From Acidihalobacter yilgarnensis (GTDB lineage: Bacteria; Pseudomonadota; Gammaproteobacteria; DSM-5130; Acidihalobacteraceae): a DNA stretch of 64,000 nucleotides. Position numbers and translations under genes: made by a program. Shown here piece by piece: positions 4,044 through 24,600 of the stretch; position 1 is the first letter of the stretch; each line of letters opens with the position of its first letter. Location: positions 2,970,040-3,034,039 of the forward strand of contig NZ_CP017415.1 in NCBI RefSeq assembly GCF_001753245.1, given 5' to 3'. The notes beneath the pieces were generated by a model. It was not told the origin of the DNA, did not search any database, and was given only the letters and a program-made list of their open reading frames with translations.

Positions 4044-5471
4044 ATGCCCAAAATTGAGCGTACCGGCGAGGAACGCCAGAGCTGGCAGCCCCTGCGGCTT
4101 TTCAATCTCTACCGCTTGTTCGTCGCCGCCCTATTTCTAGCCTTATGGCGCTTCGGGCTCGCGCCACAGTCACTAGGGCATCTATCACCTGGGCTGTTTT
4201 TCATCACGCTGCTCGTCTACCTCGGCCTGGGCCTAATCGCACTGGTCACGGCACGCCTACGCTGGCCCTCGTTCCAATTGCAGGCCAACCTGCTGGCCAC
4301 TGGCGATGTACTCGCGGTCACACTGCTCGCCCATAGCAGCGGAGGGGTTACCAGTGGCGTCGAGGTATTGTTGATACCGGCCATCGGCGCCGCCGGACTC
4401 CTGCTCTCCGAACTGAGCGCGCTGTTCGCTGCCGCCGCCGCTTCCCTGCTCCTGCTGTTCGATCAAATCTATCTGCACCTGAGCGGCCTGCAGGAGCAAA
4501 CCGCCTATACCCAAATCCGCCTCATCAACGACGCAGCCTGGCAGCTCATGGGGCATGTCAGCGGCGCTCACCTCGACGCGCTGGAACGCCTCTCGCCCGC
4601 CCTCTTTACCCTGTTCCGGCAATGGCAAAGCAACCCCGACGCACTGCATCGCACGCTTGCCCTACCGGGACAAGGGTTGGAGCTGCGCATCCGATTCACC
4701 CCGCTCGGCCTCGACCGGCAAGCCACCCTGATCATGCTTGAGGATCAGGCCGAACTCGCCGCGCAGGTACAATCGGCCAAACTGGCATCCTTGGGACGCC
4801 TGGCCGCCAGCATCGCCCACGAGATACGCAATCCCTTATCCGCCATCAGCCATGCCGCGCAATTATTGCGTGAATCACCGTCACTCAACGCCCAGGACAC
4901 CCGCCTGGTAGAAATCATCCGCACCCAGGGCGCACGCATGGATGCCATCGTGGACGACGTACTACGGCTGTCGCGCAAGGACCCGCCGCGCACACGCCCC
5001 CTCGACCTGAAAATATGGCTGCAGACACAGGCCAGCGAGGTTCGCACCCGCCTAGGTGAAGACGGTGCCGAGCTTCGTCTGCACCTTGACGACACCAATC
5101 TTGTGGCGATCTGCGACGAGGGACACTTGGCGCAAATTTTCTGGAGTTTGTGTGAGAACGCCAGCCGCTATGGCCGCCGCAAGAGCGACGGCAGACTGCT
5201 ATTGACCTTCGCGGCCCACCGTCCACCGGGCGCCCAACAGATACGCATGGACGTCATCGACCAAGGTAGTGGCGTGCCGCCCGAAGTGATTGCCCACCTC
5301 TTCGAGCCTTTTTTCACGACCTCTGCCTCCGGAACCGGGCTCGGCCTGTATATCGCGAGCGAGCTATGTGCCCTGAATGGCGGCCACCTCGAGTACATTC
5401 CCGTGCCCAGTGGCGGCAGTTGCTTCCGCTGCTTCCTGCCAGCAGTGCGACGCTCGGCGGCAAGTGCATGA
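4044..5471 (+). CDS. pilS: PilS-type sensor histidine kinase of type IV pilus system
   Basis: Membrane histidine kinase that, with PilR, controls pilin transcription. The N-terminal ~150 residues hold about five hydrophobic segments. A PAS-like stretch follows (IRLINDAAWQLMG), then the HisKA box SIAHEIRNPLSA with phospho-acceptor His259, and an HATPase domain with DQGSGVPPEV and GTGLGLYIA. It is 475 aa, shorter than the ~530 aa of Pseudomonas PilS. The sixth membrane helix and the linker that normally precede the PAS core seem to be absent after YLHLSGLQEQTAYTQ (about residue 154). The gene follows the PP0621-type gene closely and precedes pilR. Confidence 0.93.
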   Translation: MPKIERTGEERQSWQPLRLFNLYRLFVAALFLALWRFGLAPQSLGHLSPGLFFITLLVYLGLGLIALVTARLRWPSFQLQANLLATGDVLAVTLLAHSSGGVTSGVEVLLIPAIGAAGLLLSELSALFAAAAASLLLLFDQIYLHLSGLQEQTAYTQIRLINDAAWQLMGHVSGAHLDALERLSPALFTLFRQWQSNPDALHRTLALPGQGLELRIRFTPLGLDRQATLIMLEDQAELAAQVQSAKLASLGRLAASIAHEIRNPLSAISHAAQLLRESPSLNAQDTRLVEIIRTQGARMDAIVDDVLRLSRKDPPRTRPLDLKIWLQTQASEVRTRLGEDGAELRLHLDDTNLVAICDEGHLAQIFWSLCENASRYGRRKSDGRLLLTFAAHRPPGAQQIRMDVIDQGSGVPPEVIAHLFEPFFTTSASGTGLGLYIASELCALNGGHLEYIPVPSGGSCFRCFLPAVRRSAASA

Positions 5472-5572: not shown

Positions 5573-6928
5573 ATGAGCACCCAGCACGTTCTAATCGTCG
5601 ACGACGAACCGGATATCCGTGAGCTTCTGGAAATCACCCTGGGGCGCATGGGTCTTGAAACCCACGCCGCCGGCGACCTCCGCGAAGCCGGCAATCTACT
5701 CCGCGACGCGCGCTTTGATCTTTGCCTCACCGACCTGCGACTGCCCGATGGCTCTGGCATACAGCTCGTCGATTATATCCAGCAACATCACCCCGAACTG
5801 CCCGTTGCCGTCATCAGTGCGCACGGCACCATGGAAACGGCCATCGCGGCACTCAAGGCGGGGGCCTTCGATTTTGTAGCCAAGCCTGTCGATCTCGAAC
5901 GACTACGCGCGCTGGTCGGCAGCGCGCTCAAGCTCAACCAGGAAAATTCGCCACAACAACCCGACCGGCGGCGACAACCCTTGCTCGGCAATTCACCGGC
6001 CATGCAGGGCATCCGCGACACGGTCGCCAAGCTGGCGCGCAGTCAGGCTCCGATCTACATCCATGGCGAATCCGGCACCGGCAAGGAACTCATCGCCCGT
6101 CAGATACACGACCAGGGACCGCGACGCACCGCGCCCTTCGTGCCCGTCAACTGTGGCGCCATCCCGCCAGAACTGATGGAGAGCGAATTCTTCGGTCATA
6201 TCAAGGGCAGCTTCACCGGGGCAACCGTCGATAGACCCGGTCTGTTCCAGACGGCCCATGGCGGCACGCTGTTTCTTGATGAGGTCGCGGACCTCCCGCT
6301 GGCCATGCAGGTGAAGCTGTTGCGCGCAATCCAGGAACGGCGGATCAGGCCCGTCGGCGCCAACCAGGAAACACCGGTGGATGTGCGCATCCTCAGCGCC
6401 ACCCATAAAAACCTCGCCGACGAGGTTGCCGCAAACCGATTCCGGCAAGACCTGTATTTCCGCCTCAACGTGATCGAACTGCAAGCACCGCCTCTGCGCG
6501 AACGCATCGAGGACCTCCCCTTACTGGCGACCCACCTCCTGGAACGTATCGCCTCGCGCTGGGGGCACCCCTCTCTCCGGCTTGCCGATGGTGCCCTGCA
6601 CGCACTCGAGCAATATCCCTTTCCGGGCAATGTCCGCGAACTCGAGAACATACTCGAACGCGCAGCCACGCTATGCGAAGGCCAGACACTCTATGCCCGC
6701 GATCTGCGACTCTCCCCGCCCAACCCGGCAGGCAATGCCTCAACGACGTCGCCCCCGCCTCTCGCCGTTGGCGAAGCCGCACTGGATACCCAGCTCGCCA
6801 ACCAACAGCGGGAAGTCATCCGCCGCGCGCTTGAACAGACCCGCTGGAACAAGACGCAGGCGGCTGAAGTGCTCGGGATCAGCTTCCGCCAGCTCCGCTA
6901 CCGCCTGAAGAAACTGGGCATCGAGTGA
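5573..6928 (+). CDS. pilR: PilR, sigma-54-dependent response regulator
   Basis: NtrC-family activator of pilin transcription. The receiver domain (1-120) has the acidic pocket VDDEP and phospho-acceptor Asp54 (LCLTDLRLP). The AAA+ domain has Walker A GESGTGKE near residue 164 and the sigma-54 contact loop as GSFTGA, the variant I associate with PilR. The C-terminal Fis-type helix-turn-helix contains RWNKTQAAEVLGIS. At 451 aa it has normal length. It lies 101 bp downstream of pilS and directly upstream of two pilin genes that each carry a -24/-12 element, so they are the evident targets. Confidence 0.96.
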   Translation: MSTQHVLIVDDEPDIRELLEITLGRMGLETHAAGDLREAGNLLRDARFDLCLTDLRLPDGSGIQLVDYIQQHHPELPVAVISAHGTMETAIAALKAGAFDFVAKPVDLERLRALVGSALKLNQENSPQQPDRRRQPLLGNSPAMQGIRDTVAKLARSQAPIYIHGESGTGKELIARQIHDQGPRRTAPFVPVNCGAIPPELMESEFFGHIKGSFTGATVDRPGLFQTAHGGTLFLDEVADLPLAMQVKLLRAIQERRIRPVGANQETPVDVRILSATHKNLADEVAANRFRQDLYFRLNVIELQAPPLRERIEDLPLLATHLLERIASRWGHPSLRLADGALHALEQYPFPGNVRELENILERAATLCEGQTLYARDLRLSPPNPAGNASTTSPPPLAVGEAALDTQLANQQREVIRRALEQTRWNKTQAAEVLGISFRQLRYRLKKLGIE

Positions 6929-7113: not shown

Positions 7114-7610
7114 ATGAAGAAGGTTCAACAGGGCTTCACACTGATCGAACTGATGATCGTGGTGGCCATCATCGGCATCCTGGCCGCCATCGCCATCCCG
7201 GCCTACCAGGACTACACCATTCGCGCCAAGGTCACCGACGGCATCAATCTGGCCGCTGCGGCCAAGACTGCGGTTTCCGCCACGTATGCCTCCAATGGGA
7301 CATTCGGGGAGCCAATACCACTAATTTGTATTTTGGCCTTGCTCCTGCCGCCTCGATTTCAAGTAAATACACTCAGTCAGTATCAGTATTAAGCAACGCG
7401 ATCACGATCACCTATAACGAACTCGGCAACTCTACCACGGGTGATCAGCTACAGCTTGTCGCGGTACCTGCGGGTGGCAGCATCAACTGGGTATGTATTT
7501 CTGGTGCCAATCCCACTGTAACAACTTCACAAGGAAGCATTACCAGCACTCTGACTAAGGCCTTGCCAGGCAAATATGCGCCTGCCAACTGCCGATTAGC
7601 GACCCAGTAA
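7114..7610 (+). pseudogene. pilA: Type IV major pilin, frameshifted copy (pilA1)
   Basis: Type IVa prepilin. After the short leader MKKVQQG come the PilD cleavage site and the N-methylated helix [18 protein letters not shown] with Glu5. The reading frame breaks after NGTFG at a run of four G (7306-7309). Read as is, it ends at 7392 with an unrelated tail. Adding one G restores a full pilin of ~165 aa continuing [10 protein letters not shown] and ending with a Cys-bounded loop (INWVC ... APANC), just like the neighbouring pilin. The downstream frame is clean for 300 nt to 7610, so the break is recent or a sequencing error. SD GGAG is at 7102-7105; a sigma-54 element lies upstream. Confidence 0.88.
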
Positions 7611-7710
7611 AACAAAAAAACAACAGGCAACGCTTGCGACCCACAAATCACTAAGGACAAACTAATGCAAGCTAAGCATAACTAAGCAAGCTTTTTATGC
7701 CTGAGTTGGC

Positions 7711-7738
7711 GCCCCGCCTTGTGCGGGGCATTTTTTTG
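7711..7738 (+). terminator. Rho-independent terminator after first pilin
   Basis: Stem GCCCCGC / GCGGGGC (7711-7717 with 7723-7729), 5-nt loop CTTGT, followed by seven T (7731-7737). It ends the pilA1 transcript and isolates pilA2, which has its own promoter. Confidence 0.9.
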
Positions 7739-7778
7739 CCTAGATTTCAATCATCCACATACAATTGCGGCCGCATGA

Positions 7779-7794
7779 TGGCTCGGGATTTGCT
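7779..7794 (+). promoter_or_regulatory. Sigma-54 promoter for second pilin
   Basis: TGGCTCGGGATTTGCT has GG and GC exactly 10 bp apart. The -12 half TTTGCT is a strong match and the -24 half differs from TGGCACG by one base. The expected start of transcription is about 25 bp before the ATG at 7831. The -12 half matches better than that of the first pilin. Confidence 0.75.
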
Positions 7795-7830
7795 TAACTA
7801 AGCGAGAACCCCCAGCGCCGACGAATACAC

Positions 7831-8301
7831 ATGAGCGAACAACGACAAAAAGGCTTCACCCTCATCGAACTGATGATCGTAGTGGCCATCATCGGCATTC
7901 TGGCCGCCATCGCCATTCCTGCTTACCAGGACTACACCATCCGCGCCAAGGTGACGGAGGGCCTCAATCTCGCCGGCGCGGCCAAATCGGCCATCTGGGA
8001 CACCTACGGCAACCTCGGCACTTTCCCCACAGTCGGCGGCAACGCAAGCTATGGGCTCCCCGCGACGATTGCCGGCACCAACACCAGTAACGTCACCATC
8101 GGCTCGCAAGGCCTGATCACCATCACCTACAAAAACAATCTTGGCGGCGCAGCCAATGGCAAAACCCTGCTGTTGCAGCCTTGGACGCACGGCGGCGTGA
8201 TCGAATGGATCTGCTACGCGGCAAACAAGCCCGCGCAAACACCCTTGAGCACCAACACAGCCACCCTGCCCGGAAAATACGCGCCTGCGATCTGCCGCTA
8301 G
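7831..8301 (+). CDS. pilA: Type IV major pilin, intact copy (pilA2)
   Basis: Intact 156-aa type IVa prepilin. It has a 10-residue leader ending in Gly (MSEQRQKG), then [18 protein letters not shown] with Glu5, which is processed by PilD. The C-terminal region has the two-Cys D-loop ([11 protein letters not shown] ... APAIC), rich in Ser/Thr between the cysteines. The first 45 mature residues are almost identical to pilA1, while the globular domains differ, so the two are tandem paralogues. No strong SD is visible before the ATG. The GT-C gene follows 70 bp downstream beyond a hairpin. Confidence 0.95.
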
Positions 8302-8313
8302 GCGTACATCCAC

Positions 8314-8335
8314 GGACTCGCGCCCGCGCGAGTCC
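8314..8335 (+). terminator. Hairpin between pilA2 and glycan operon
   Basis: A 9-bp perfect stem GGACTCGCG / CGCGAGTCC with a 4-nt loop lies 13 bp after the pilin stop. The following sequence (GTTACAATTCCCTCTT) is only moderately T-rich, so this may be a partial terminator that lets some transcription run into the glycan genes. Confidence 0.55.
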
Positions 8336-8371
8336 GTTACAATTCCCTCTTAACTCCTGCCCGAGGCACGC

Positions 8372-10360
8372 ATGTCTGCGCGAACCCGCCTGCTCGTCTG
8401 GATCACCCTCATTCTCACCGCACTACTGACCGCCTTCATTTACTGGCCCGGTGTGCATGGCGGCTTCGTGCTGGATGACTACGGCAATATCGTCGACAAC
8501 GCCTGGTTACACATCCATAACTTGCACCCGAACACGCTGCTTGCCGCCGCCTTTTCCTCGCACTCAGGCCCCCTCGACCGGCCGATCAGCATGCTGAGCT
8601 TCGCGCTGGACGAGTACTTCTGGGGGCCCGGACCTTATGCGATGAAGGCGACGAACATCGTCATCCACGCCCTCAATGGCTTCTTCTTGTTTGCCGTCGC
8701 CTCATTGATCCTCAAAGCCTATCGTCGCCGTTTCCGCCCCGATCTCGAGCCCGCACTGCTCGCGTGGACCGCCCTCGCCATCACCGCCGCCTGGCTGCTA
8801 CTGCCGATCAATCTGACGGCGGTGCTCTACATCGTGCAACGCATGACTAGCTTGTCCGGCGGCTTCGTCATGATCGGCGTAGCACTATATCTGCACGGAC
8901 GACTGCGCATGCTCGAAGGGCGGAAGGGCTTCTGGCTGATCCTCCTAGGAATGCTGGTGTTCGGCCCGCTCGCCGTATTGGCCAAGGAATCTGGTGCCAA
9001 TTTGCCCATCTACACGTTGGCCCTGGAGTGGACGCTGTTCGGCTTCGCGCGCGCCAACGGCAAGCGCGATGCTCGCCTGTACGCGTTTTATCTGCTGGTG
9101 CTCGTACTGCCGGGCATATTCGGCATGCTCTGGTTGTGGCCCGGTATCCACGCGAGCTTCGAACACTCAGAACGCTTGTTCACGATGGACCAGCGCCTGC
9201 TCACCGAACCGCGCGTGGTACTGCTCTACATCGCCTGGTCGCTGGCGCCCAATCTCGGGGTACTCAGCCTCTACCATGACGACTTTCCCTTCTCCACCGG
9301 CCTGCTCTCGCCACCCACCACACTGCTCTCGATCATCGCGCTTGCGCTCATCCTCGCCCTCGCACTCTGGCAGCGACGCACGCGTCCGTTACTGAGTCTC
9401 GGCATCCTCTGGTTCCTGGGCGGCCAGTTGATGACCGCCACTATCTTCAACCTGGAACTCGTCTTCGAGCAGCGCAACTATCTACCCGACATCGGCCTGC
9501 TGCTAGCGCTATTCTCGATGACGCTGCTGGAACCGCCGGTTCAACGACTGGCGCTGCCGCGCCGAGTGCTGATCGTGGGTCTGATCGCGCTCTATGCCGG
9601 CATCACCGCGCTACGTGTGCACGAATGGGCCAACCCCATACGCTTCGCCGTGATTTCCGCAGCGGCGCACCCGAATTCACCGCGCGCGACCTATGGGCTT
9701 GGACGCACCTACGCCAATCTGGTCACCAATGCCCAATCGCCGATGCTGCCACTGGCCACACAGGCACTGGAGCGGGCCGCCGCCGTGCCGCATGCCAGCA
9801 TTCTGCCGGCCTCAGCGCTGCTGATCCTGCATGCAAAACTCAAGCTCCCGCTCAAGCCTGCCTGGTGGCTGGATATCGAAGACACCCTCGCCCGCCGATC
9901 TGCCTCGGCACAGGACATCAACGGACTGACCGCCATGGTCAATTGCGCCATGGACGAAAGCTGCCAATTTCCGCGCACACAAATGATCCGCGTATTTCAG
10001 GCCGCCTTCGAAAAAAGCCCGAACAGCGCCAACATCATCACCATCTACAGCAACTATGCGCTCAATGTGTTGCACGACTATCCTCTAGCACTGAGCCTCA
10101 TGCAGGTGGCCGTGAAGCTCGCACCGACGGTTTCCCAGTACTGGATCAACCTCGGACGACTCGACATCTACCTTGGCAATTTCAAGGCCGCAGAGGACGG
10201 CATCGTGCATCTGCAGTCTCTCAATCGACTCCATCATCTTGACGACGCCCTGAAGGATTTGCGCAATCGCCTTGCCGAGGCGCGCAAAATAGATGCCCGC
10301 GCCGCCGCCAAGGCCCGAACGCCAGCGACCAAAACGAACGAGACGACACCGCATGACTGA
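8372..10360 (+). CDS. GT-C fold membrane glycosyltransferase with TPR-like C-terminus (TMTC/PMT-like)
   Basis: A 662-aa polytopic membrane protein. A first membrane helix is followed by a periplasmic loop with a paired acidic motif (FVLDDYGNIVDN, Asp35-Asp36), the position of the catalytic acid in GT-C transferases that use polyprenyl-phosphate sugars. The next segment (RPISMLSFALDEYFWG ... KATNIVIHALNG) resembles the DUF1736 region of TMTC O-mannosyltransferases. About 10-12 hydrophobic helices reach residue ~420; the last ~230 residues look like helical TPR repeats. It lies directly after the pilins, and its end overlaps the start of a GT2 (ATGACTGA). A role in pilin glycosylation is inference; the acceptor and sugar are unknown. 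Confidence 0.75.
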   Translation: MSARTRLLVWITLILTALLTAFIYWPGVHGGFVLDDYGNIVDNAWLHIHNLHPNTLLAAAFSSHSGPLDRPISMLSFALDEYFWGPGPYAMKATNIVIHALNGFFLFAVASLILKAYRRRFRPDLEPALLAWTALAITAAWLLLPINLTAVLYIVQRMTSLSGGFVMIGVALYLHGRLRMLEGRKGFWLILLGMLVFGPLAVLAKESGANLPIYTLALEWTLFGFARANGKRDARLYAFYLLVLVLPGIFGMLWLWPGIHASFEHSERLFTMDQRLLTEPRVVLLYIAWSLAPNLGVLSLYHDDFPFSTGLLSPPTTLLSIIALALILALALWQRRTRPLLSLGILWFLGGQLMTATIFNLELVFEQRNYLPDIGLLLALFSMTLLEPPVQRLALPRRVLIVGLIALYAGITALRVHEWANPIRFAVISAAAHPNSPRATYGLGRTYANLVTNAQSPMLPLATQALERAAAVPHASILPASALLILHAKLKLPLKPAWWLDIEDTLARRSASAQDINGLTAMVNCAMDESCQFPRTQMIRVFQAAFEKSPNSANIITIYSNYALNVLHDYPLALSLMQVAVKLAPTVSQYWINLGRLDIYLGNFKAAEDGIVHLQSLNRLHHLDDALKDLRNRLAEARKIDARAAAKARTPATKTNETTPHD

Positions 10361-11228
10361 GCCCGCCATCAGCATCGTCCTACCTGCGCGCAACGAAGCA
10401 GACAATCTCAATGTATTATTGCCCGAGCTACGGCGCCTGCATCCGAACGCCGAAATTATCGTTGTTGACGACGGGTCGGCCGATGAAACCGCCGCGGTAG
10501 CCTCGACGCAGGGCGCTGATCGCGTCGTAAGACACCCCTATGCCATGGGCAACGGCGCGGCCATCAAGAGCGGCGCACGCGCAGCCACCGGCCACATCAT
10601 CGTATTCATGGACGCAGACGGCCAACATCAGCCCAAGGACGTCTCGCAGCTACTCACACGCATCGGCCAGGGTTACGACATGGTGGTCGGTGCCCGCGAA
10701 GCCCGTTCGCAAGCCTCATTGGGACGATTGGCCGCCAATACGCTCTACAATCAGCTGGCGAGCTGGGTAACTGGACACGCTGTACGCGACCTCACTTCCG
10801 GTTTCCGGGCAATCCGTGCGGCGCGCTTTCGGCGTTTTCTCTACCTGCTGCCCAACGGCTTTTCCTATCCGACAACCATTACCATGGCCTTTTTCCGAGC
10901 CGGCTACGCAGTCGACTATCTCCCGATCGAGGCACTCAAACGCGGCGGCAAGAGCCACGTCCGCCCCCTGCGTGACGGCCTGCGCTTCCTGCTGATCATC
11001 TTCAAGATCGGCACGCTGTACTCCCCGCTCAAGGTTTTTGTGCCCGCCAGCGCGGTCTTCTTTGCACTCGGTCTGCTACGTTACGTGTTCACTTTCTGGC
11101 ATAACGGCACCTTTACCAACATGAGTGTGCTCCTGTTCATCACTGGCACCCTGGTGTTCCTGCTCGGCCTGATTTCCGAACAAATCGCGAACCTGATGTA
11201 CGCCCAAACCGACGACGAAGCACCTTGA
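10353..11228 (+). CDS. GT2 glycosyltransferase, polyprenyl-phosphate sugar synthase type
   Basis: A 291-aa family 2 glycosyltransferase with a GT-A fold: ISIVLPARNEADN, then VVDDGSADET (nucleotide-sugar binding) and FMDADGQHQP (DXD metal site, near residue 85). Two C-terminal hydrophobic segments (from about residue 228 and 251) anchor it in the membrane. This arrangement matches dolichyl/polyprenyl-phosphate mannose or glucose synthases, which supply lipid-linked sugar to GT-C enzymes. I chose the ATG at 10353 because it overlaps the previous stop; an upstream in-frame ATG at 10293 would add 20 Arg/Pro-rich residues read from the preceding gene. Donor sugar cannot be read from sequence. Confidence 0.85.
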   Translation: MTEPAISIVLPARNEADNLNVLLPELRRLHPNAEIIVVDDGSADETAAVASTQGADRVVRHPYAMGNGAAIKSGARAATGHIIVFMDADGQHQPKDVSQLLTRIGQGYDMVVGAREARSQASLGRLAANTLYNQLASWVTGHAVRDLTSGFRAIRAARFRRFLYLLPNGFSYPTTITMAFFRAGYAVDYLPIEALKRGGKSHVRPLRDGLRFLLIIFKIGTLYSPLKVFVPASAVFFALGLLRYVFTFWHNGTFTNMSVLLFITGTLVFLLGLISEQIANLMYAQTDDEAP

Positions 11229-12379
11229 GCCTGCCGGTCGCACTCGTCATCACACGCAATCTGCCGCCACTGATCGGCGGCATGGAACGGCTCGTGTGGC
11301 ATATCGTGGACGAGCTGCGCACGGAATATGCGGTTTGCGTCGTAGGTCCGGAGGGCTGTAGCGAGCAACTGCCAAGCGGTGTCGAGGCTCACGAGGTTCC
11401 GCTGCGTCCGCTTTGGCGTTTTTTGTTGGGGGCCGCATGGCACAGCCTGGACGAAGCGCGTCGCCGACGCCCACGGTTGATTCTCGCCGGTAGCGGCCTC
11501 ACCGCGCCCCTCGCTTGGCTAGCCGCGCGTCTGACCGGCGCGCGCTGCGTCGTCTACCTTCATGGCCTTGACGTCGAGGCGCGCCACCCGCTCTATCGCC
11601 TTTTCTGGCGCCGCAGCTTCCGTCATTTCGACCAGGTACTGGTCAACAGTCTATTCACCCGGAATCTCGCCCTGGCGGCCGGCGTCCTTCCGGAGCGGAT
11701 GACCCTACTTCACCCCGGCGTCGCCTTGCCCGACATGGCATTGGCCGCAAGCCGGCGCACAGCCTTTCGTGAACGACACGGGCTAGACGATGCCCCTGTC
11801 ATGCTCTACCTCGGCCGAATTACCGCGCGCAAGGGGCTCGCGCCCTTTATCCGCGACATACTGCCCATGATCGTGACCGCACAGCCCCGAGCAAAACTGG
11901 TTGTCATCGGCGAAGAGCCCACACAGGCGCTGAACCGCCATACGGGTGAGCGTCAGCTGATTGAGCACAGCCTTGACGCCAACGGCCTAAACCACTCCGT
12001 GCGCCTTCTGGGCGAATTCGACCAGGACAACCCCGAAATCGAGGCCGCCTATTTTGCCGCCGACGTCCTCGTCTTCCCCGTACAAGCACGCGCGCACGAT
12101 AACGAGGGCTTCGGCATGGTCGCCATCGAAGCTGCTGCCCATGGCCTGCCGACCGTGGCCTTCTCCGTGGGCGGAGTAACCGATGCCATTAGCGACCCCC
12201 GCAGCGGCCACTTGATCCCTCCTGACGCCAACGAGGCATTCGCAAAGGCGGTACTGGCTTGCCTGATACCGACTCCGGGACGCGCCACCAACTGTCGCGC
12301 CTTCGCGTCCAAGTTCGCCTGGACGACCTTCGGCCAACACCTGCGCGAGACATTTCGGTCCCAGACCACCCCACGATGA
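11225..12379 (+). CDS. GT4 family glycosyltransferase
   Basis: A 384-aa GT-B glycosyltransferase of family 4 type. The N-terminal acceptor domain has the glycine-rich loop LPPLIGGMER. The C-terminal domain has LYLGRITARKGL and the E-x7-E donor motif EGFGMVAIEAAAHGLP. It probably acts on the cytoplasmic face of the membrane. The start is TTG at 11225, overlapping the previous stop (TTGA); the next in-frame ATG (11282) would cut into the glycine loop. The next gene overlaps again at 12376. Substrate unknown. Confidence 0.85.
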   Translation: MSLPVALVITRNLPPLIGGMERLVWHIVDELRTEYAVCVVGPEGCSEQLPSGVEAHEVPLRPLWRFLLGAAWHSLDEARRRRPRLILAGSGLTAPLAWLAARLTGARCVVYLHGLDVEARHPLYRLFWRRSFRHFDQVLVNSLFTRNLALAAGVLPERMTLLHPGVALPDMALAASRRTAFRERHGLDDAPVMLYLGRITARKGLAPFIRDILPMIVTAQPRAKLVVIGEEPTQALNRHTGERQLIEHSLDANGLNHSVRLLGEFDQDNPEIEAAYFAADVLVFPVQARAHDNEGFGMVAIEAAAHGLPTVAFSVGGVTDAISDPRSGHLIPPDANEAFAKAVLACLIPTPGRATNCRAFASKFAWTTFGQHLRETFRSQTTPR

Positions 12380-13116
12380 CTGCCCCCTCCCATCTACCGC
12401 ACGCCACGCTGGACCTGCGTAGCCGTATGGCCAAGGGGGCCAAGATTGAACGATTACTGGAGCTCGCGCGAGGGGACAGCGTATTGCGCCTGCTCGAAAT
12501 CGGCACCGGCGCGGGTGGCATCGCTCATTATTTTGCCACCCACCCCTCCGGGAGATTCGCGGTTAGCGCGGTCGACACCTGCGATCAACGCCAGATACGA
12601 GACGGCTACGACTTCCGAAAAGTCACCGATACCTGCCTGCCGTTTCCTGGTGCCACCTTCGACATTGTCATCACCAATCATGTGATCGAGCACGTAGGCG
12701 ATCTGTCCGCACAAAAACAGCATTTGACGGAGATCCACCGCGTGCTGCGGCCGGAGGGATGTGCCTACTTCGCCATGCCGAACCGATGGATGTTGGTGGA
12801 ACCGCACTATGGTTTACCCTTCCTGAGCTGGCTCCCGCCCACGCTGCGCAGCCCATATCTGCGGCTCATGCGACGCGGTAAGGTTTACGATTGCAAGCCA
12901 TTGTCCAAGCGGCACATCGAGTCGCTGTTCATGGAAGCCGGCTTCGAATATCGCAATCTTGGAACCCGAGCACTGCGCGAAATCATCGCGCTAGAAAACA
13001 TCCAAAACAGGTTTGCACACCTCGTTTCAAACCTCCCAGACCCCGTGCTTGAGCGCTTGGCCCCGCTCATGCCGACACTTATTTATCGCCTGACGCCCAT
13101 CGCCGCATCCATATGA
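12376..13116 (+). CDS. SAM-dependent class I methyltransferase
   Basis: A 246-aa class I methyltransferase with SAM motif I LLEIGTGAGGIAHYF and the post-II/III region FDIVITNHVIEHV typical of Methyltransf_11 proteins. In a glycan cluster it could cap or modify a sugar, but small-molecule specificity cannot be read. The ATG at 12376 overlaps the previous stop (ATGA); an upstream in-frame start at 12259 lies inside the preceding gene and is less likely. The stop overlaps the next gene by 4 bp. Confidence 0.85.
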   Translation: MTAPSHLPHATLDLRSRMAKGAKIERLLELARGDSVLRLLEIGTGAGGIAHYFATHPSGRFAVSAVDTCDQRQIRDGYDFRKVTDTCLPFPGATFDIVITNHVIEHVGDLSAQKQHLTEIHRVLRPEGCAYFAMPNRWMLVEPHYGLPFLSWLPPTLRSPYLRLMRRGKVYDCKPLSKRHIESLFMEAGFEYRNLGTRALREIIALENIQNRFAHLVSNLPDPVLERLAPLMPTLIYRLTPIAASI

Positions 13117-14147
13117 GAAAGCCAGATAGACCTGCGCCCGCAGTCTGGTTCCCCGCCATCCGCGCAGGCAGCGGTGCGGACGTATTCACTGAACGCCTCG
13201 TCGATGGGTTGCTCGCCCGCGGACTACGGGCCGAGATCACCTGGCTGCCGCATCGCGCCGAATACATGCCCTGGAGCGTGCCGTCTCCGCCCGCCCCACC
13301 ATGGGCCAACATCGTTCACGTCAACAGCTGGCTGCACCCGCGTTTTATCCCCACCCGCCTGCCGATGGTCGCCAGCATGTTGCACAGCGTGCATGATCCT
13401 GCGCTGATGCCTTACAAAACGTTGCCGCAACGGCTTTACCATCGCCTTTGGGTGAAGCCGGTCGAACGGGCCATATTGCGGCAGGCAGACCGCGTGATTG
13501 CCATCAGCCGTTACACCGCGGCGCGTACGCACGATGTCTTTGGTATCGACGATATTGACGTAATTCCCATTGGCATTGACCTCAATGGCCCGTTTCAGCC
13601 CATCCCGTCGCCAGTCATGCGCCACCGACCGTTTCGACTGCTCTATATCGGCAACTGGTCGGCACGCAAAGGCGCTGACCTACTCGCACCGATCATGAGG
13701 AACCTCGGAGAGGAGTACGAACTTTGGCTGAGAACCGGCCTTAGAGACAGAGAGTTCGCATCATTGCCGCCAAACATGAAGCAGATACCGCATTGTGAGG
13801 GCGACGAAGCGCTCGCCCAGCTCTATCACCAATGCGACGCGCTGTTATTCCCGTCACGGCTTGAGGGCTTCGGCATGGTCGCGCTGGAAGCCCAGGCCTG
13901 CGGTCTTCCGGTCATCGCCACGAACGGATCTGCCCTGCCCGAGGTGGTCGAGGACGGCGTCACGGGTCTCCTCTGTACCTTCGGGGCTATTGAGGAATTC
14001 GCTCATGCGGCACGCCGTCTGGCGGCGGACGGGGAGCTTTTCCTCGCTCTCCGAAATGCCGCAGGCAAGCATGCGGCCAAGCATCTCGATCTGCCGCGCA
14101 TGATCGACCGCTACATTGCCGTATATGAATCCATACTAGCGCGTTGA
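13113..14147 (+). CDS. GT4 family glycosyltransferase
   Basis: A 344-aa GT-B glycosyltransferase. The N-terminal region contains RAGSGADVFTERLVDGL, the C-terminal half has LLYIGNWSARKGADL and the E-x7-E motif LEGFGMVALEAQACGLP. It is the last gene of the overlapping operon beginning at 8372. Its 3' end overlaps by 12 bp the end of the convergent GT4 on the other strand. Sugar specificity unknown. Confidence 0.85.
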   Translation: MRKPDRPAPAVWFPAIRAGSGADVFTERLVDGLLARGLRAEITWLPHRAEYMPWSVPSPPAPPWANIVHVNSWLHPRFIPTRLPMVASMLHSVHDPALMPYKTLPQRLYHRLWVKPVERAILRQADRVIAISRYTAARTHDVFGIDDIDVIPIGIDLNGPFQPIPSPVMRHRPFRLLYIGNWSARKGADLLAPIMRNLGEEYELWLRTGLRDREFASLPPNMKQIPHCEGDEALAQLYHQCDALLFPSRLEGFGMVALEAQACGLPVIATNGSALPEVVEDGVTGLLCTFGAIEEFAHAARRLAADGELFLALRNAAGKHAAKHLDLPRMIDRYIAVYESILAR

Positions 14148-15224
14148 CACAGCCAGCCGGCGTAACTCCGTCGCCATCACCATCGCCGCCTCTCGCCAGC
14201 CGCAAGCAGGAAGCGCCACCGGCCGCGGCCGAGCCAGGATGGCATCAAAACCCCGCTCGAAACCTGCCACCGTAGGCGGCACGTACACGGCATCCGGTCC
14301 CCCAGCTTCCCGGATTTCGGGTATGTCAGAGGCAAGTATCCGGGTGCCGCAGGTTCTGGCTTCCAACGCGGGGATCCCGAAACCTTCGTAATGTGAAGGG
14401 AACACAAAAGCCTCCGCGCCAGCGTATATCTGGGCCAGTTGCTCATCGCTAACGTAACCCAGCCAGCGAACGCCCAGCGCCTTCACTTCGTCCAACAGGG
14501 CTTTCAAGCGCCGGTTTTGCCAACCGGACGCACCCACAATGTACAGTCTGTATTCTTCAAAATCCCCACGTTGTTTCCTACGCACGAATGCCTGCAATAA
14601 GGTTTCCAAATTCTTGCGCGGCTCAAGCGTCCCGACGGCCAGGAAATAAGGCTTTTCCACACCCATGCCACGCAGGCTTGCAGCCACGTCGTTCATGTTT
14701 TGAAGGCCAAACGGTACGGTAACGCCCGGCCGCGCGATCGCGTCGGCAGAAACACCCAGTTCGTTAAGTAGTCTGTCGGCCGTCCCTGATGAAATCGCAA
14801 CCCTCGCATCCGCCGACCTCACGTCCGCCGCATACCACAAGCGATGCGCCAGGCGCGTTACCGTAGGCATTGACTCAGGAAACAGCCGATAATTCAGGTC
14901 GTAAATCGTGCTCAATATTTTAATTCTTTTGTTTCCAACCATGCGCGGCGACAGCGTTCTCGACGCCCAGAAAATATCTATTCCGTCCTTCTCGCAGTAA
15001 TTACCCACATAACGTTTCAGCCAAAAATACGAGGAAGGGAAACGCCGCCCTCCCATGCGGGAAATCCAGCGGTCAGGTAATTGCATCGTCAAAGGCGCGT
15101 GGGTATACAGGAAAAATTCCGCTTCCGGCAGCAACCCTTCTAATTCCTGAATGATCTGCAAAACATACCGGCCGATACCCGTGATTCTGCCGGATAACGG
15201 CGTTGCGTCGATCCCGATTCTCAT
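14136..15224 (-). CDS. GT4 family glycosyltransferase (minus strand)
   Basis: A 362-aa GT-B enzyme. It starts MRIGIDATPLSGRITGIGRY, the glycine-rich acceptor loop common in mannosyl/rhamnosyl GT4 enzymes. The C-terminal domain has FLAVGTLEPRKNLETLLQAF and the E-x7-E motif HYEGFGIPALEARTCG. It is downstream of the flippase gene on the same strand with a 67-bp gap, so the two may share a transcript running against the GT-C operon. Confidence 0.87.
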   Translation of the reverse strand: MRIGIDATPLSGRITGIGRYVLQIIQELEGLLPEAEFFLYTHAPLTMQLPDRWISRMGGRRFPSSYFWLKRYVGNYCEKDGIDIFWASRTLSPRMVGNKRIKILSTIYDLNYRLFPESMPTVTRLAHRLWYAADVRSADARVAISSGTADRLLNELGVSADAIARPGVTVPFGLQNMNDVAASLRGMGVEKPYFLAVGTLEPRKNLETLLQAFVRRKQRGDFEEYRLYIVGASGWQNRRLKALLDEVKALGVRWLGYVSDEQLAQIYAGAEAFVFPSHYEGFGIPALEARTCGTRILASDIPEIREAGGPDAVYVPPTVAGFERGFDAILARPRPVALPACGWREAAMVMATELRRLAVSTR

Positions 15225-16739: not shown

Positions 16740-18467
16740 ATGTCAACACCTGCGACGCAGCTGAGGCTTAGTGGCCTCGCGCGTCATCTGGTTCGTAGTG
16801 GCCTGCTCAAGGAGGAGGAGGCCTACGGGCTGCAAGAACAGTCGCAGCAAAAGCGCATTCCGCTGGTCAGCCTGCTCATCAAGCAGAGTCATCTGACCCC
16901 TCCTCAGGTTGCGCTCGCTGCTGCCGAAGAATTCGGCATCCCCCTGTTCGACCTGTCGGTGTTCGACCTCGAATATCTACCCAAAGCGCTCATCAACGAA
17001 AAGTTGGTTCGACAAAACCGGGCCCTGCCGCTGTTTCAGCGTGGGAACCGACTCTTCGTCGCCATTTCAGACCCCATGAATCTTGGCTCGGTCGATGAGC
17101 TGAAGTTCAATACCGGCATCCAGACCGAACCGCTCATGGTCGAGGACGACAAACTCGACCGCTCAATCGAGGAAGTCCTGAGCGCCATGGATTCGTCCAT
17201 GAGCGAATTGATGGGCGACTCGGACCTCGAAGGACTCGATCGACTGGAAGTCGCAGAGGCGCCGGAGGATAACAACGCCGCCTCCACACCGGATCAGGAT
17301 GACGCGCCCGTGGTGCGCTACGTCAACAAGGTGCTGCTCGATGCCATCAAGCGCGGCGCCTCGGACATCCACTTCGAACCCTACGAAAAATACTTCCGCC
17401 TGCGTCTACGCATAGACGGCATGCTCCACGAAGTTGCCCGCCCACCGGTCGCCATGGCGGCCCGGATATCCTCCCGCATCAAGGTCATGTCGCGTATGGA
17501 TGTGGTAGAGCGACGCAAACCGCAGGACGGGCGCATCAAGCTCCAAATCAGCAAGAATCGTGCGATCGATTTCCGTGTAAACAGCTTGCCAACATTGTTC
17601 GGCGAGAAGATCGTACTGCGTATACTCGACCCAACCAGCGCCCAGCTCGGTGTTGAAGCCCTCGGCTTCGAGGAGGAGCAACGCAGACTTTACCTGAGCG
17701 CGCTGAAAAAACCATACGGCATGATTTTGGTCACCGGCCCCACCGGCAGCGGCAAGACCGTGACACTCTACACTGGCCTCGGCATCCTCAATACCGAGGA
17801 TCGAAATATCTCGACTGCCGAGGACCCGGCCGAAATCAACATGCCTGGCATCAACCAGGTCAACGTCAATCCCAAGGTCGGCTTGACCTTCGCCGAGGCT
17901 CTGCGAGCCTTTTTGCGCCAGGATCCCGACATCGTAATGGTCGGTGAGATACGCGATCTCGAAACGGCGGAGATCTCGATCAAGGCCGCACAGACGGGGC
18001 ATCTGGTGCTCTCGACGCTGCATACCAACGATGCACCGCAGACGCTGACCCGCCTCATGAACATGGGCGTACCGGCGTACAACATCGCCAATTCGGTTTC
18101 GCTCATCATCGCCCAACGCCTAGCAAGACGGCTCTGCCCCCACTGCAAGCAGGTACACGACGTGCCGAATGAAGCCTTGCTTGATGAAGGCTTTGATACC
18201 GCCGACGTCGGCACCTTCAAGCTCTACAAGCCCAACATACAGGGCTGCAACAAGTGCAGCGGGGGTTACAAGGGTCGCTTGGGCATTTACCAAGTCATGC
18301 CCGTATCCGACGAAATGGGACGCATGATCATGGCGGGTAGCAATGCCATGGATATCGCCGCGCAGGCCAAAAAAGAAGGGGTCGACGATCTCCGCGCCTC
18401 CGGCCTCAGAAAAGTGAAAGACGGCGTGACCAGCCTGGATGAACTCAACCGCGTCACCAAGGACTAG
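16740..18467 (+). CDS. pilB: Type IV pilus assembly ATPase PilB
   Basis: Hexameric motor ATPase that powers pilus extension, 575 aa. An N-terminal MshEN/T2SSE_N region is followed by the ATPase core with Walker A GPTGSGKTVTLY, the Asp box, Walker B DIVMVGEIRDLETAE and the His box STLHTNDA. A zinc-binding tetracysteine is present (CPHC ... CNKC). All catalytic elements are intact. It is first in a pilB-pilC-pilD-coaE order with its own promoter. Confidence 0.97.
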   Translation: MSTPATQLRLSGLARHLVRSGLLKEEEAYGLQEQSQQKRIPLVSLLIKQSHLTPPQVALAAAEEFGIPLFDLSVFDLEYLPKALINEKLVRQNRALPLFQRGNRLFVAISDPMNLGSVDELKFNTGIQTEPLMVEDDKLDRSIEEVLSAMDSSMSELMGDSDLEGLDRLEVAEAPEDNNAASTPDQDDAPVVRYVNKVLLDAIKRGASDIHFEPYEKYFRLRLRIDGMLHEVARPPVAMAARISSRIKVMSRMDVVERRKPQDGRIKLQISKNRAIDFRVNSLPTLFGEKIVLRILDPTSAQLGVEALGFEEEQRRLYLSALKKPYGMILVTGPTGSGKTVTLYTGLGILNTEDRNISTAEDPAEINMPGINQVNVNPKVGLTFAEALRAFLRQDPDIVMVGEIRDLETAEISIKAAQTGHLVLSTLHTNDAPQTLTRLMNMGVPAYNIANSVSLIIAQRLARRLCPHCKQVHDVPNEALLDEGFDTADVGTFKLYKPNIQGCNKCSGGYKGRLGIYQVMPVSDEMGRMIMAGSNAMDIAAQAKKEGVDDLRASGLRKVKDGVTSLDELNRVTKD

Positions 18468-18503
18468 CACACTGACGCCACACTGCATGGGTAGAGACGA
18501 GCT

Positions 18504-19724
18504 ATGGCACAAAAGGCACTGAGCAAATCCATCTTCGTCTGGGAAGGCGTTGACCGAAAAGGCATCCGCATCAAGGGCGAAAACGAAGCTCAGAGCGAGG
18601 CCTTGCTCAAGTCGCAACTCAGGCGGGACGGCATCAATCCGACCAAAATCCGGAAAAAAGCGAAATCGTTGTTCGGTGGGGGCAAAAAGATCGACGGCAA
18701 GGACATCGCCGTGCTCGCGCGCCAGCTCGCCACCATGATGAGTGCCGGCGTACCGCTGGTTCAGTCACTGGACATCATCGCGCAAGGGCACGACAAACCC
18801 GCCATGCAGAAAATGGTCTTCGGGCTCAAGGGTAACGTCGAGGGCGGTAACACACTCGCAGATGCCCTGACCCATTATCCAGACCTGTTCGACGACTTGT
18901 TCGTCAATCTCGTCCGCGCCGGTGAGCAATCCGGTTCCCTGGAAAATCTTCTAGATAAAATTGCCACCTACAAGGAAAAAACCGAAGCGATCAAGGCCAA
19001 GATCAAGAAGGCGATGATGTATCCGGCCGCGGTCGTCACGGTCGCCTTCATTGTCACAGCCATCCTCCTCATCTTCGTGGTCCCTCAGTTCCAGACGCTG
19101 TTCAATGGTTTTGGCGCCTCCCTACCCGCCTTTACACTCTTCGTAATCCACTTGTCCAAGCTCTTTCAAGCATGGTGGTGGGCGATTTTCGCCGCTATCG
19201 GCGGTGGTATCTGGTTGTTCGCGCGTGCCTACAAACGCTCGCACGCATTTCATCGCATGATCGACGGCTGGATGCTACACGTGCCGATTTTCGGCGCGCT
19301 TGCCAGGAAATCGGCCATCGCTCGCTTTGCGCGGACGCTGTCCACCATGTTCGCAGCCGGCGTGCCGCTGGTCGAAGCGCTCGAATCGGTAGCGGGCGCG
19401 ACCGGCAACGTGCATTACGCCGAGGCCACGATGAAAATGCGCGACGATACTTCCTCCGGCACCCAGTTGCGTCAATCGATGCGCCAGTTCACGCATTTGT
19501 TCCCCAACATGAGCCTGCAGATGGTAGCCATCGGCGAGGAATCGGGAGCACTGGATAATATGCTCGCCAAGGTCGCCGACTTCTACGAAGAGGAGGTCGA
19601 CGTCATGGTCGACGGTCTCTCCACTCTCCTCGAACCGCTGATCATGGTCATACTCGGCGTCATCGTCGGCGGACTGGTTATCGCCATGTACCTGCCAATC
19701 TTCAATCTCGGCAAGGTCGTCTGA
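18504..19724 (+). CDS. pilC: Type IV pilus inner-membrane platform protein PilC
   Basis: A 406-aa polytopic platform protein with two T2SSF domains. The first begins near LARQLATMMSAGVPLVQSLD and the second near FARTLSTMFAAGVPLVEALE. Membrane helices follow each repeat and close the protein (LIMVILGVIVGGLVIAMYLP). It couples PilB to pilin insertion. It starts 36 bp after pilB. Confidence 0.97.
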   Translation: MAQKALSKSIFVWEGVDRKGIRIKGENEAQSEALLKSQLRRDGINPTKIRKKAKSLFGGGKKIDGKDIAVLARQLATMMSAGVPLVQSLDIIAQGHDKPAMQKMVFGLKGNVEGGNTLADALTHYPDLFDDLFVNLVRAGEQSGSLENLLDKIATYKEKTEAIKAKIKKAMMYPAAVVTVAFIVTAILLIFVVPQFQTLFNGFGASLPAFTLFVIHLSKLFQAWWWAIFAAIGGGIWLFARAYKRSHAFHRMIDGWMLHVPIFGALARKSAIARFARTLSTMFAAGVPLVEALESVAGATGNVHYAEATMKMRDDTSSGTQLRQSMRQFTHLFPNMSLQMVAIGEESGALDNMLAKVADFYEEEVDVMVDGLSTLLEPLIMVILGVIVGGLVIAMYLPIFNLGKVV

Positions 19725-19765
19725 ACTACCCCTAGCACGGGGAACGCGCACCGCGTCCCCGCCGA

Positions 19766-20683
19766 ATGAAGCCATGCTGCGAACCCAGCCCGATGACCCT
19801 GCCGATACCCATCCCCTACCTCGTTCTGTTAATCCTAACCGGCTTGGTGATCGGAAGCTTCGTGAACGTGGTCATTCACCGCCTTCCACGTATGATGGCG
19901 CTACAGTGGCGGCGCGAATGCGCCGAGCTGGGCGCCTCCGAAGCGCACACGCCCACAGAGGACGACGACGCGCATCCTCAAAAAAACGAAACTTACAACT
20001 TGGTTGTGCCTCGCTCATCTTGCCCGCATTGCGGGCACATGATTGCAGCGACCGAGAACATCCCGATCCTCAGTTATCTTTGGCAACGCGGGCGCTGCGC
20101 TGCCTGCCGTGCCCCGATTTCGCCACGCTACCCGATCATAGAGCTACTGGGCGCCCTGCTTGCCGCAATGGCAGGATTGCGTTTCGGCCTCAGCTGGGAA
20201 ACGCTGGCGGCGGCCGTGCTCGGCTGGAGTCTGCTCGCCGCTGCTGCCATCGATCTCGAAACTCAGCTACTGCCCGACAGCATCACCCTACCGCTGCTAT
20301 GGCTCGGCTTGCTGCTGAATATCGACGGGCTATTCGTACCGTTGCGCGACGCCGTCATCGGGGCGATGGCGGGTTATTTGAGCCTGTGGCTGATCTATCA
20401 CCTGTTCCGCCTACTGACCGGTAAAGAGGGCATGGGCTACGGCGATTTCAAACTGCTCGCCTTGCTCGGCGCGTGGTTCGGCTGGCAGCTACTGCCACTG
20501 ACCATACTGTTGTCCTCCTTGGTTGGCGCCCTCGCGGGGCTGTCCCTGATGGCCTTTCGGCGTCACCACCACGAGATTCCCATACCCTTCGGCCCCTATC
20601 TCGCGGCGGCTGGTTGGATCGCCCTGCTGTGGGGACACGCGCTGACCGGCGCGTATCTGCGCTTCGCGCATATTGGCGGATGA
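19766..20683 (+). CDS. pilD: Prepilin peptidase / N-methyltransferase PilD
   Basis: Bifunctional membrane aspartyl protease that cleaves prepilin leaders and N-methylates the new Phe1, 305 aa. The N-terminal helix contains GSFVNVVIHRLP. The cytoplasmic domain has two CxxC pairs (CPHC, CAAC) that bind zinc. The protease aspartates lie in DLETQLLPD and GYGDFK. The start could be ATG 19766 or ATG 19793 (MTLPIPIPYL); neither has a clear SD. The stop overlaps coaE. It would process both pilins in this locus. Confidence 0.95.
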   Translation: MKPCCEPSPMTLPIPIPYLVLLILTGLVIGSFVNVVIHRLPRMMALQWRRECAELGASEAHTPTEDDDAHPQKNETYNLVVPRSSCPHCGHMIAATENIPILSYLWQRGRCAACRAPISPRYPIIELLGALLAAMAGLRFGLSWETLAAAVLGWSLLAAAAIDLETQLLPDSITLPLLWLGLLLNIDGLFVPLRDAVIGAMAGYLSLWLIYHLFRLLTGKEGMGYGDFKLLALLGAWFGWQLLPLTILLSSLVGALAGLSLMAFRRHHHEIPIPFGPYLAAAGWIALLWGHALTGAYLRFAHIGG

Positions 20684-21644: not shown

Positions 21645-24600
21645 ATGCACGCTCTCAAACTTTCCCTACTCGGCCCGATCGAAATCGAATTTCAGAACAG
21701 ACCGTTTTCGGGCGCGCCGCACGACAAGGGATTCATGCTACTGGCCTATCTGGCAGTGGAGGGCGCTCGTCCGCACAGCCGAGAGGCTCTGGCCGAAATG
21801 CTCTGGCCGGACCTGCCAGCCGAACGAGGACGTCACAACCTGCGCCAGACACTGTTCCGCCTACGCAACCTCTTGGGGAACAGCAAGGTAGGCAATTTCT
21901 TCGAAACCGATCGCCACCGCATCTGGTTCAATCGGCAAAGCGACTATCTGCTCGACCTCGATCAATTCACCCATGCACGTGACGTCGACACGGCGTCACT
22001 GCTCCGACGACTCAATCTCTATCGCGGCATGTTCATGGAAGATCTGCGCAGCGAGACGAGTGAGGAATTCGCACTCTGGATCGAAGGACGGCGGACGCAG
22101 ACGCATCGCCTCATGCTGGCCCTGCTTGAGGAAGCCTGCACGCGCTTTGAGTCACAAAACGAAACGGTGGCCGCCCTGCGCTGGGCAGAACGTTACGTCG
22201 ATCTCGCCCCTTGGAATGAGGACGGCCATCGACGCCTGATACAGCTGCTGGCCAAAAACGGCCAGCGGAGTGCCGCTATTGCCCACTACCATGCGATGGT
22301 CGAATCGCTCGATCACGAACTGGGTGTCACCCCCTCTGCCGAAAGCAGACGCCTGTTCGAGCGCCTTGAGCAAACCGCTACCGCGCCCCCAAACGAGCAG
22401 GCAGACAAGCATATCTGGCACGGCGGTAACAACCCCGGGCTCGGGCACGAATATCGGCAGATCACGGTACTACGCTGCGGCTTCGGCTATCAGGACATAG
22501 ATGACCCAGAAGCCTTCGCCGACGCAGTTGCCGAACCCATCGCCCTCGCTGCCCGTACCATAGAGGAGCACAACGGTTGGATCGCGGTGGCACGCAGCAC
22601 CGGCATTCTAGCCTACTTCGGCTGGCCAACTGCGGACGAACGGGCTACCACGCACGCCGTGCGCGCTGCTATCGCTGTCGCCAGTCGAATATCGGAAAAA
22701 ACGGCTCGCAGCCTTTCCATTGGCATACACACCGGGCCGATCATTCTGACTAACGAGACGAATCGGCCGGACACTATCGGGCTGACCACCGACATCGTGC
22801 TCCGCCTGCAGATTTCAACACCGCCAGGCATCATCGCGATTAGCGAGGCTACGCGGCGCTGTATTCGCGGGCACTTCGAACTATCCGCCCTCCCTCCCCT
22901 GACGATGACCGAGCAAAGCCGCCCCTTAGGCGTCTGGCGTGTCCACCGAGACAACCAAGGCGTACTGATGGACGGTCAAGCCCAAAAACCGCCCCTGGTC
23001 GGGCGCGACGTCGAACTTGAGTCCCTGCTCGACGACTGGACCCAAGTCCAGAGCGGACGTTGCGTGGTCACCGTACTCGTCGGCGAAGCAGGTATCGGCA
23101 AAACTCGGCTACTACAGGCGCTACACGATAAAATCGATCGGCCGCTACTGCGCGAGACGCACTGTGATCCCCTGATGAAGCAGACGCCTTATCACCCGGT
23201 CATGCATTTTTTTAGGCGCCATCTCGACTTGCCGCGCAATTACCCAGATACCCTCGTGACCCATAAGCTGGAGGCACACTACACCAGCTTCCCCAGCCGA
23301 GACGGCGGCGGCATCATCAAGCCATTGCAATGGCTACTGGCACGTCCAAGCGATGAGGGTTTATCTGAACATTCCGCGAGCACACACAGTGGTGATGGCG
23401 AACGTCACCAGCTCGCCGAGGCCGTCGCCAGCCTGCTGGAAACCAGCGCACAGACAACACCGCTCCTGCTCGTGATCGAGGATTTGCACTGGGCAGACCC
23501 CTCCACCTTGGCATTGTTAGGTTATCTGACCACGAGGCTCGCACAGTCACGCATACACATGTGCCTGACCATGCGCAGCACCGCCTGCCTCCCGAACAAT
23601 CTGCTCGAGCGCGCCCGTATCCTTCAGCTCAAGCCACTCGATCTGTCCGCTTCGTTGCAGCTGACCCAACGCATTGCCCCCCCTGACAAGACCAGTAGCG
23701 ATTTCGCCCTGGTGATTGCCAAGCAGTCCGAAGGCAATCCCATGTTCATCGTAGAGCTGACGCACATGCTCCACGACGACGCGCTGGACGACACGCTGCC
23801 GGGCAAGCTGCAGGAACTCATCAGCACGCGTATCGAGCAAGCCTGCGAAGACAAACCTCTGTTACGCGCTGCGGCCGTCATCGGACGCGAATTCTGCACC
23901 GCGCACTTGGCGCGCCTGCTTGAACTGCCGGAGGCAACGGTGGATGAAGGGCTCCGACGCCTGAGTCAGCGCCACCTGATCGAGCGCTCATCCGATGACG
24001 GCCCGACCTACCGATTCGCACATGCGCTTGTTCATCAAATCACCTATCAATCTACCACCCGCAGCCAGCGTCGGGTGATGCACCGCCAATTCGCCACACT
24101 GCTGCAAAACGCCAACGACATCGATGCCGGTGCGATCGCTTGGCATCTCACGGAAACCGGCGCGTACGCCGAGGCCATCGGCTGGTGGCTCAAGAGCGGG
24201 CGCAACGCAGCGTCACTGGCCGCCTATACCGAGGCCGTCAGCCATTTCGAGCGCGGCCTGCAGCTCCTTGAACACATCCCTGATCGCGAGGCGTTCTGGG
24301 AAACCGAGCTCGATCTACTCATCCAGCTGGCATACCCGCTCGCCATCACCAAAGGATATTACGATTCCAAATCCGAACGCCTCTACCGCCGCGCACTGGA
24401 AATCAGCAAACGACACGCCGTCGAACCCCGCCACGGGCTGGCGCTGCTGCGCAGCTATTGGTTCGGCGCGAGCAGTCGCAATTCCTTCAGCGAAAGTCGC
24501 CTCATCGCGGGACGCATGATCGAGCTGGCCGAGTCGGTCCACGCAAATGTCTTCGCCGCGCTCGGGCACTATCTGTATGGCAACGCATCGTTATGGCTTG

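Follow-up and report, generated by a model that had tools for sequence, protein, structure and literature searches.

A GT-C/TPR transferase and an overlapping polyprenyl-phosphate-sugar synthase beside type IV pilin genes form a probable TfpW-like pilin glycosylation module

Type IV pili are surface organelles that also serve as phage receptors, and glycosylation of the pilin shields Pseudomonas aeruginosa against phages specific for the pilus (PMC11841053; PMC12369383). The transferases known to carry out this modification are a few WaaL-like enzymes and TfpW. TfpO (PilO), TfpM, PglS, and PglL are of the WaaL/Wzy type, with an O-antigen-ligase domain, and the genes for TfpO, TfpM, and PglS are frequently neighbors of the gene for the substrate (PMC12645811). 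Alone among the established pilin transferases, TfpW is classed as a GT-C enzyme, separate from the WaaL-like types (PMC11841053; PMC12369383; PMC12645811). It adds D-arabinofuranose to the group IV pilins of P. aeruginosa (PA7, Pa5196), the D-Araf donor coming from a separate set of genes (PMC12369383). Among systems with other acceptors, TMTC1–4 are eukaryotic O-mannosyltransferases that use Dol-P-Man as donor and carry the motifs DD, RxD, KE, and ERxxY (PMC7801869), and three-component systems of the GtrB type classically act on O-antigen (PMC11127046).

The window analyzed here is a stretch of 64,000 nucleotides from the Acidihalobacter yilgarnensis genome. In it, a type IV pilus cluster surrounds a putative transferase and a GT2 glycosyltransferase: pilS (4044–5471) and pilR (5573–6928), both on the plus strand, are followed by two pilin genes, the pair itself, a set of candidate glycan genes, and finally pilB, pilC, and pilD (16740–20683, plus strand). 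An earlier note on this DNA had placed two pilin genes directly 5′ of the transferase. Both are indeed there, on the plus strand; the first (7114–7610), however, is frameshifted near 7300, and only the second (7831–8301; PF00114 and PF07963) encodes an intact type IV pilin, which is the likely acceptor protein. The frameshift occurs in a genome assembled as a single contig, and intact counterparts of the gene are present in two genus neighbors (L031 and L032); either genuine decay or a sequencing error may account for it.

About 70 bp 3′ of the second pilin gene begins an open reading frame of 662 codons (8372–10360, plus strand), whose product holds FVLDDYGNIVDN and is a candidate pilin glycosyltransferase of the TfpW-like type. 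The AlphaFold2 model of this protein, built on an alignment of 106 homologues (pLDDT 95.3, pTM 0.93), combines a GT-C fold (residues 1–446) with a C-terminal TPR solenoid (residues 421–640), the region to which TPR proteins match. When structures were ranked by Foldseek E-value alone, only TPR proteins were retrieved; the GT-C matches emerged from VIA-align, in which the top rows were all GT-C enzymes. The best solved match was STT3 (8agb; Z 19.7, 326 residues aligned, 4.6 Å), followed by AglB (3waj, 18.6), ALG12 (9s6t, 17.4), Pmt4 (9i5k, 17.2), and ArnT (5f15, 16.3), a group that includes both phosphate- and diphosphate-donor enzymes. Ten residues (D35, D36, R70, N95, R157, K205, R275, E366, R368, and Y370) are invariant in all 106 homologues, and the first-loop acids D35-D36 sit just after TM1, as expected of a GT-C enzyme. 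In the topology of 11 transmembrane segments assigned by hand from the model, positive charges favor the cytoplasmic loops; by the positive-inside rule, both the invariant residues and the TPR tail would accordingly be periplasmic. The GT-C-like first loop and the TPR-like tail that had been read from the sequence are thus both borne out by structure prediction.

The same cannot be said of the DUF1736/TMTC-like segment proposed for this protein. PF08409 matched neither the transferase nor any of 19 homologues, so this part of the earlier reading fails; it was also unmatched in 56 genomes of the class, in a search that gave no match in any control genome. Indeed, no Pfam or NCBIfam model matched the membrane half in these 20 proteins, the sole family-model matches being TPR models on the tail. 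The likeness to TMTC1–4 is therefore one of architecture, and membership of that family by PF08409 was rejected. As in TMTC, a GT-C domain with a first-loop DD precedes TPRs (lumenal in TMTC) and the transferase is partnered with a donor synthase, and both DD and K-E are present, but QRM stands in place of RxD and E-H/Q-R-N-Y in place of ERxxY. The contrast that had been drawn with the Wzy-like PilO/TfpO enzymes holds, as none of the 20 transferase sequences matched the Wzy_C/O-antigen-ligase models of Pfam.

The transferase gene overlaps the next one by 8 nt: its stop codon TGA (10358–10360) lies past the ATG of the GT2 gene (10353) within ATGACTGA, as had been noticed. The GT2 protein (10353–11228, plus strand; 291 aa) passes the Glycos_transf_2 cut-off and has a GT-A domain with the DXD motif FMDADGQHQP. 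Its best curated model is the archaeal AglJ, matched over its full length though under the curated cut-off (TIGR04182, E 2e-38). In the structure model (pLDDT 89.6), a juxtamembrane helix near the C terminus is followed by two long helices (226–251 and 256–287), and the best matches are DPMS (5mlz, Z 26.0), ArnC (9bhe, 24.1), and GtrB (9nyd, 22.3). By its fold, then, this protein is a polyprenyl-phosphate-sugar synthase. The DXD motif, the two C-terminal membrane helices, and the dolichyl-phosphate-mannose-synthase layout previously ascribed to it are all confirmed, but mannose as the donor sugar is not supported. A GtrB-type synthase paired with a periplasmic GT-C enzyme is also a feature of the three-component Gtr systems; these differ in having a glycan as the acceptor, whereas here it is apparently pilin, and in the TPR tail and the absence of GtrA here. 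No GtrA was found in the cluster in 15 genomes searched, and GtrA homologues are encoded elsewhere in the genome of the window organism. Also elsewhere in the genome, on the minus strand of G000:C1 at about 760279–761397, a 952-aa open frame with GT2 and GtrA domains apparently represents a fused protein of the three-component type.

The closest known relative of the transferase is TfpW, which the earlier note overlooked. In PA7 the pilin gene is followed by an ORF of 641 aa (TfpW) and then by one of 245 aa (TfpX; given as 244 aa in PMC11841053). The profile of the transferase family matches PA7 TfpW with an E-value of 1.8e-13 genome-wide, an HMM search on the membrane domain of TfpW gives 7e-14, and hhalign pairs the two with a probability of 99.5% (E 1.4e-22) over 430 columns. 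Aligned with each other are D35-D36 and D42-D43, R70-P71 and R75-P76, R157 and R154, and K205-E206 and K195-E196 (transferase and TfpW, respectively). The two proteins share a site directly 3′ of a pilin gene and a GT-C domain with a first-loop DD, then R-P, then K-E, and they are of similar length (641 aa for TfpW, 662 aa here). They differ in that identity is low (17%), that motif 3 is G-R-F-D in TfpW and Q-R-M in the window family, that motif 7 is H-E-R-F and E-H/Q-R-N-Y, respectively, and in the donor: the TfpW loci lack a GT2, while the window transferase has its own synthase of the DPMS/GtrB type. The D-Araf marker ALO gave a full-length match in PA7 and a weak match of 60 residues in the window organism's own genome.

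In the family that holds PA7, presumably the Pseudomonadaceae, all 11 strong hits to the transferase occur with a GT2, and a pilin gene is in view for 10 of them, whereas all nine of the weak hits examined lie directly 3′ of a pilin gene without a GT2; these nine are TfpW, four close kin, and four members of a third type. From the homology to TfpW, the pilin linkage, and this split, we assign the window protein to a superfamily of GT-C/TPR transferases linked to pilin genes, and within it to the branch equipped with a donor synthase of its own. The third type, seen at L240, L241, L242, and L245 in Pseudomonadaceae-like genomes, is a pilin-adjacent GT-C/TPR family of ∼540 aa with YLVQRT and YRSYLW motifs, without an adjacent GT2, and distinct from both TfpW and the window family. 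No TPR-containing pilin transferase family was found in the open literature, in a search outside of which lay the primary papers on TfpW, and an earlier description of this TfpW branch is possible.

The distribution of the pair was followed in 151 genomes, one for each gammaproteobacterial family sampled. The transferase was found in 46, the GT2 in 42, and both together in 41 (Fisher p 3e-30, uncorrected for phylogeny). Only one surveyed genome (G149, at L198) had a GT2 but no detectable transferase, and in another (G038, at L049, ∼7310–11047) both genes are decayed, with several stops, next to intact pilin genes. Linkage to pilin genes, which had been proposed as a check, is conserved: in 33 of the 46 carriers a PF00114 pilin gene ends 9–533 bp 5′ of the transferase. 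Of the other 13, six have a contig end no more than 0.5 kb away and one has it at 1.5 kb, and six are not pilin-adjacent. Genome-wide, PF00114 is present in 44 of the 46 carriers vs. 59 of the 105 non-carriers (p 3e-7). An independent scan of named genomes found 583 relatives and gave 80 loci that were kept, most of them with the order pilin(s)–transferase(s) and often with a GT2, in genera such as Dyella, Rhodanobacter, Frateuria, Luteimonas, Pseudoxanthomonas, Solimonas, Halothiobacillus, and Undibacterium, among others. Many loci carry tandem transferase pairs, the copies of which fall largely into two deep groups in the tree. Two to three tandem transferases before a single GT2, largely from deep and old paralogue groups, are seen at L169 (G137), L195 (G154), and L160 (G152).

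Taken together, these results suggest, with a probability of about 0.8, that the pair glycosylates pilin in the manner of TfpW, from a polyprenyl-phosphate-linked sugar made by its own donor synthase, as a module within the pilSR-pilA-...-pilBCD cluster. The module is conserved and probably functional in this role. As judged from its fold and family, the GT2 would act on the inner side of the membrane, where it would charge undecaprenyl phosphate with a sugar taken from a nucleotide donor. A flippase, for which the Wzx-like protein of the cluster is the probable candidate, would turn the lipid-linked sugar over. From this polyprenyl-phosphate donor, the GT-C/TPR protein would then pass the sugar, or else a short glycan, to a side-chain hydroxyl of the pilin. 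The TPR tail, which is predicted to share the periplasmic side with the active site, may serve to bind the pilin. Transfer to the adjacent pilin would be timed before or during pilus assembly. The proposal of a pilin O-glycosylation system made from this sequence stands in its fold, TPR tail, donor-synthase overlap, and pilin linkage, but not in DUF1736 or in the pilin loop named as acceptor. Of the three outcomes that the earlier note said would refute it, two were checked, absence of a GT-C fold and absence of conserved linkage to pilin genes, and both checks came out in favor of the proposal.

The genes between the pair and pilBCD bear on the size of the transferred unit, a monosaccharide or an oligosaccharide. 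A GT4 glycosyltransferase gene (11225–12379) starts before the GT2 gene has ended and is followed by those for a SAM-dependent methyltransferase (12295–13116) and a second GT4 (13113–14147), all on the plus strand; on the minus strand are a third GT4, the role of which in the system is uncertain (14136–15224), and a Wzx-type flippase (PF01943; 15292–16599), our guess for the carrier that takes the lipid-linked sugar across the membrane. The first two GT4s are candidates for extending the glycan and the methyltransferase for tailoring it, and these neighbors would set the particular glycan. In a form of the proposal to which we give somewhat less than an even chance, the GT2 primes undecaprenyl phosphate, the GT4s and the methyltransferase extend the chain, the Wzx-like protein flips it, and the GT-C/TPR protein transfers it en bloc, as AglB does. 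AglJ primes the lipid with the first sugar in Haloferax, and it is the resemblance of the GT2 to AglJ, together with the fact that the transferase matches STT3 and AglB best in structure and the adjacency of the glycan genes, kept in the genus, that speaks for such a route. The archaeal system differs in that it is N-linked and that the TPR tail here replaces the C-terminal domain of AglB. Against such a route, the GT4, methyltransferase, and flippase genes are kept in near relatives only, and across families just the transferase and the GT2 are conserved. ArnT, PMT, and ALG12 use monosaccharide donors, and as structural matches of the transferase they score nearly as well as STT3 and AglB.

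That the pair decorates some other periplasmic acceptor (LPS, exopolysaccharide, or other envelope proteins), its place beside the pilin genes being regulatory, we regard as unlikely. It would accommodate the six carriers without an adjacent pilin gene, including G019 and G103, in whose genomes PF00114 matched nothing at all, and the classical action of GtrB-type systems on O-antigen; it would not explain why a pilin gene lies so close by in 33 of 46 families or the homology to a pilin transferase, TfpW, encoded at the same genomic position, and the TPR tail would suit the binding of a protein. Although non-catalytic accessory proteins are encoded directly 3′ of pilA elsewhere (PMC11841053), it is highly improbable that the GT-C/TPR protein is itself an accessory or chaperone of pilin assembly, like TfpY or TfpX and without transferase activity, given its GT-C fold with invariant active-site residues, its near-perfect co-occurrence with a donor synthase, and the fact that TfpX of PA7 (245 aa) is a separate gene matching no family here.

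If pilin glycosylation by the pair is correct, the rare TfpW type would turn out to occur in roughly one gammaproteobacterial family in three and gain a defined donor synthase, and proteins that match only generic TPR models would gain a function. What is of note is this breadth and the absence of a family model. Pilin should then be glycosylated in Dyella, Rhodanobacter, Luteimonas, Undibacterium, Solimonas, and similar genera, and loss of either gene should abolish the pilin glycan. A bolder proposal, which we hold at just under even odds, is that these loci represent a widespread and unnamed class of pilin glycosylation, present in ∼30% of gammaproteobacterial families, with many cultured genera among them. 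In this class the GT-C/TPR transferase would work only with its own translationally coupled synthase and hand a sugar bound through a phosphate, rather than a diphosphate, straight to type IV pilins, and anciently split paralogues, often in tandem, would act sequentially or on different pilins.

As for the position of the glycan, a Ser/Thr-rich two-Cys loop at the C terminus of both pilins had been suggested as the acceptor. The two-Cys loops are real, but the pilins beside the transferase contain 22% Ser/Thr vs. 19% for those of genomes without it (p 0.015, with two false ORFs among the controls). Because this difference is only slight, Ser/Thr content does not identify the acceptor and the proposed role of the loop is unsupported; a search of the pilins for conserved Ser/Thr likewise gave no convincing site.

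Candidate regulatory elements lie in the intergenic regions around pilin 2. Between the two pilin genes lies a hairpin resembling an intrinsic terminator (7711–7729, plus strand), by consensus match, and 5′ of pilin 2 a sigma-54-like element, TGGCTCGGGATTTGCT (7779–7794, plus strand), matches the consensus with one mismatch and is suggested as a regulatory site; a scan for sigma-70 promoters gave results at chance level. The gap between pilin 2 and the transferase holds a further hairpin (8312–8337, plus strand; z −2.9), and strong hairpins also occur in this gap at L031, L044, L166, and L175, while L032 and L040 lack them. A terminator has been reported 3′ of other pilin genes (PMC11841053), with which this hairpin fits; judging from the sequence, it could be a leaky terminator that holds transferase expression under the level of the pilin. 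Shortly 3′ of pilD, at 21645–25457, is a gene for a regulator of 1270 aa with BTAD, AAA_16, and TPR domains.
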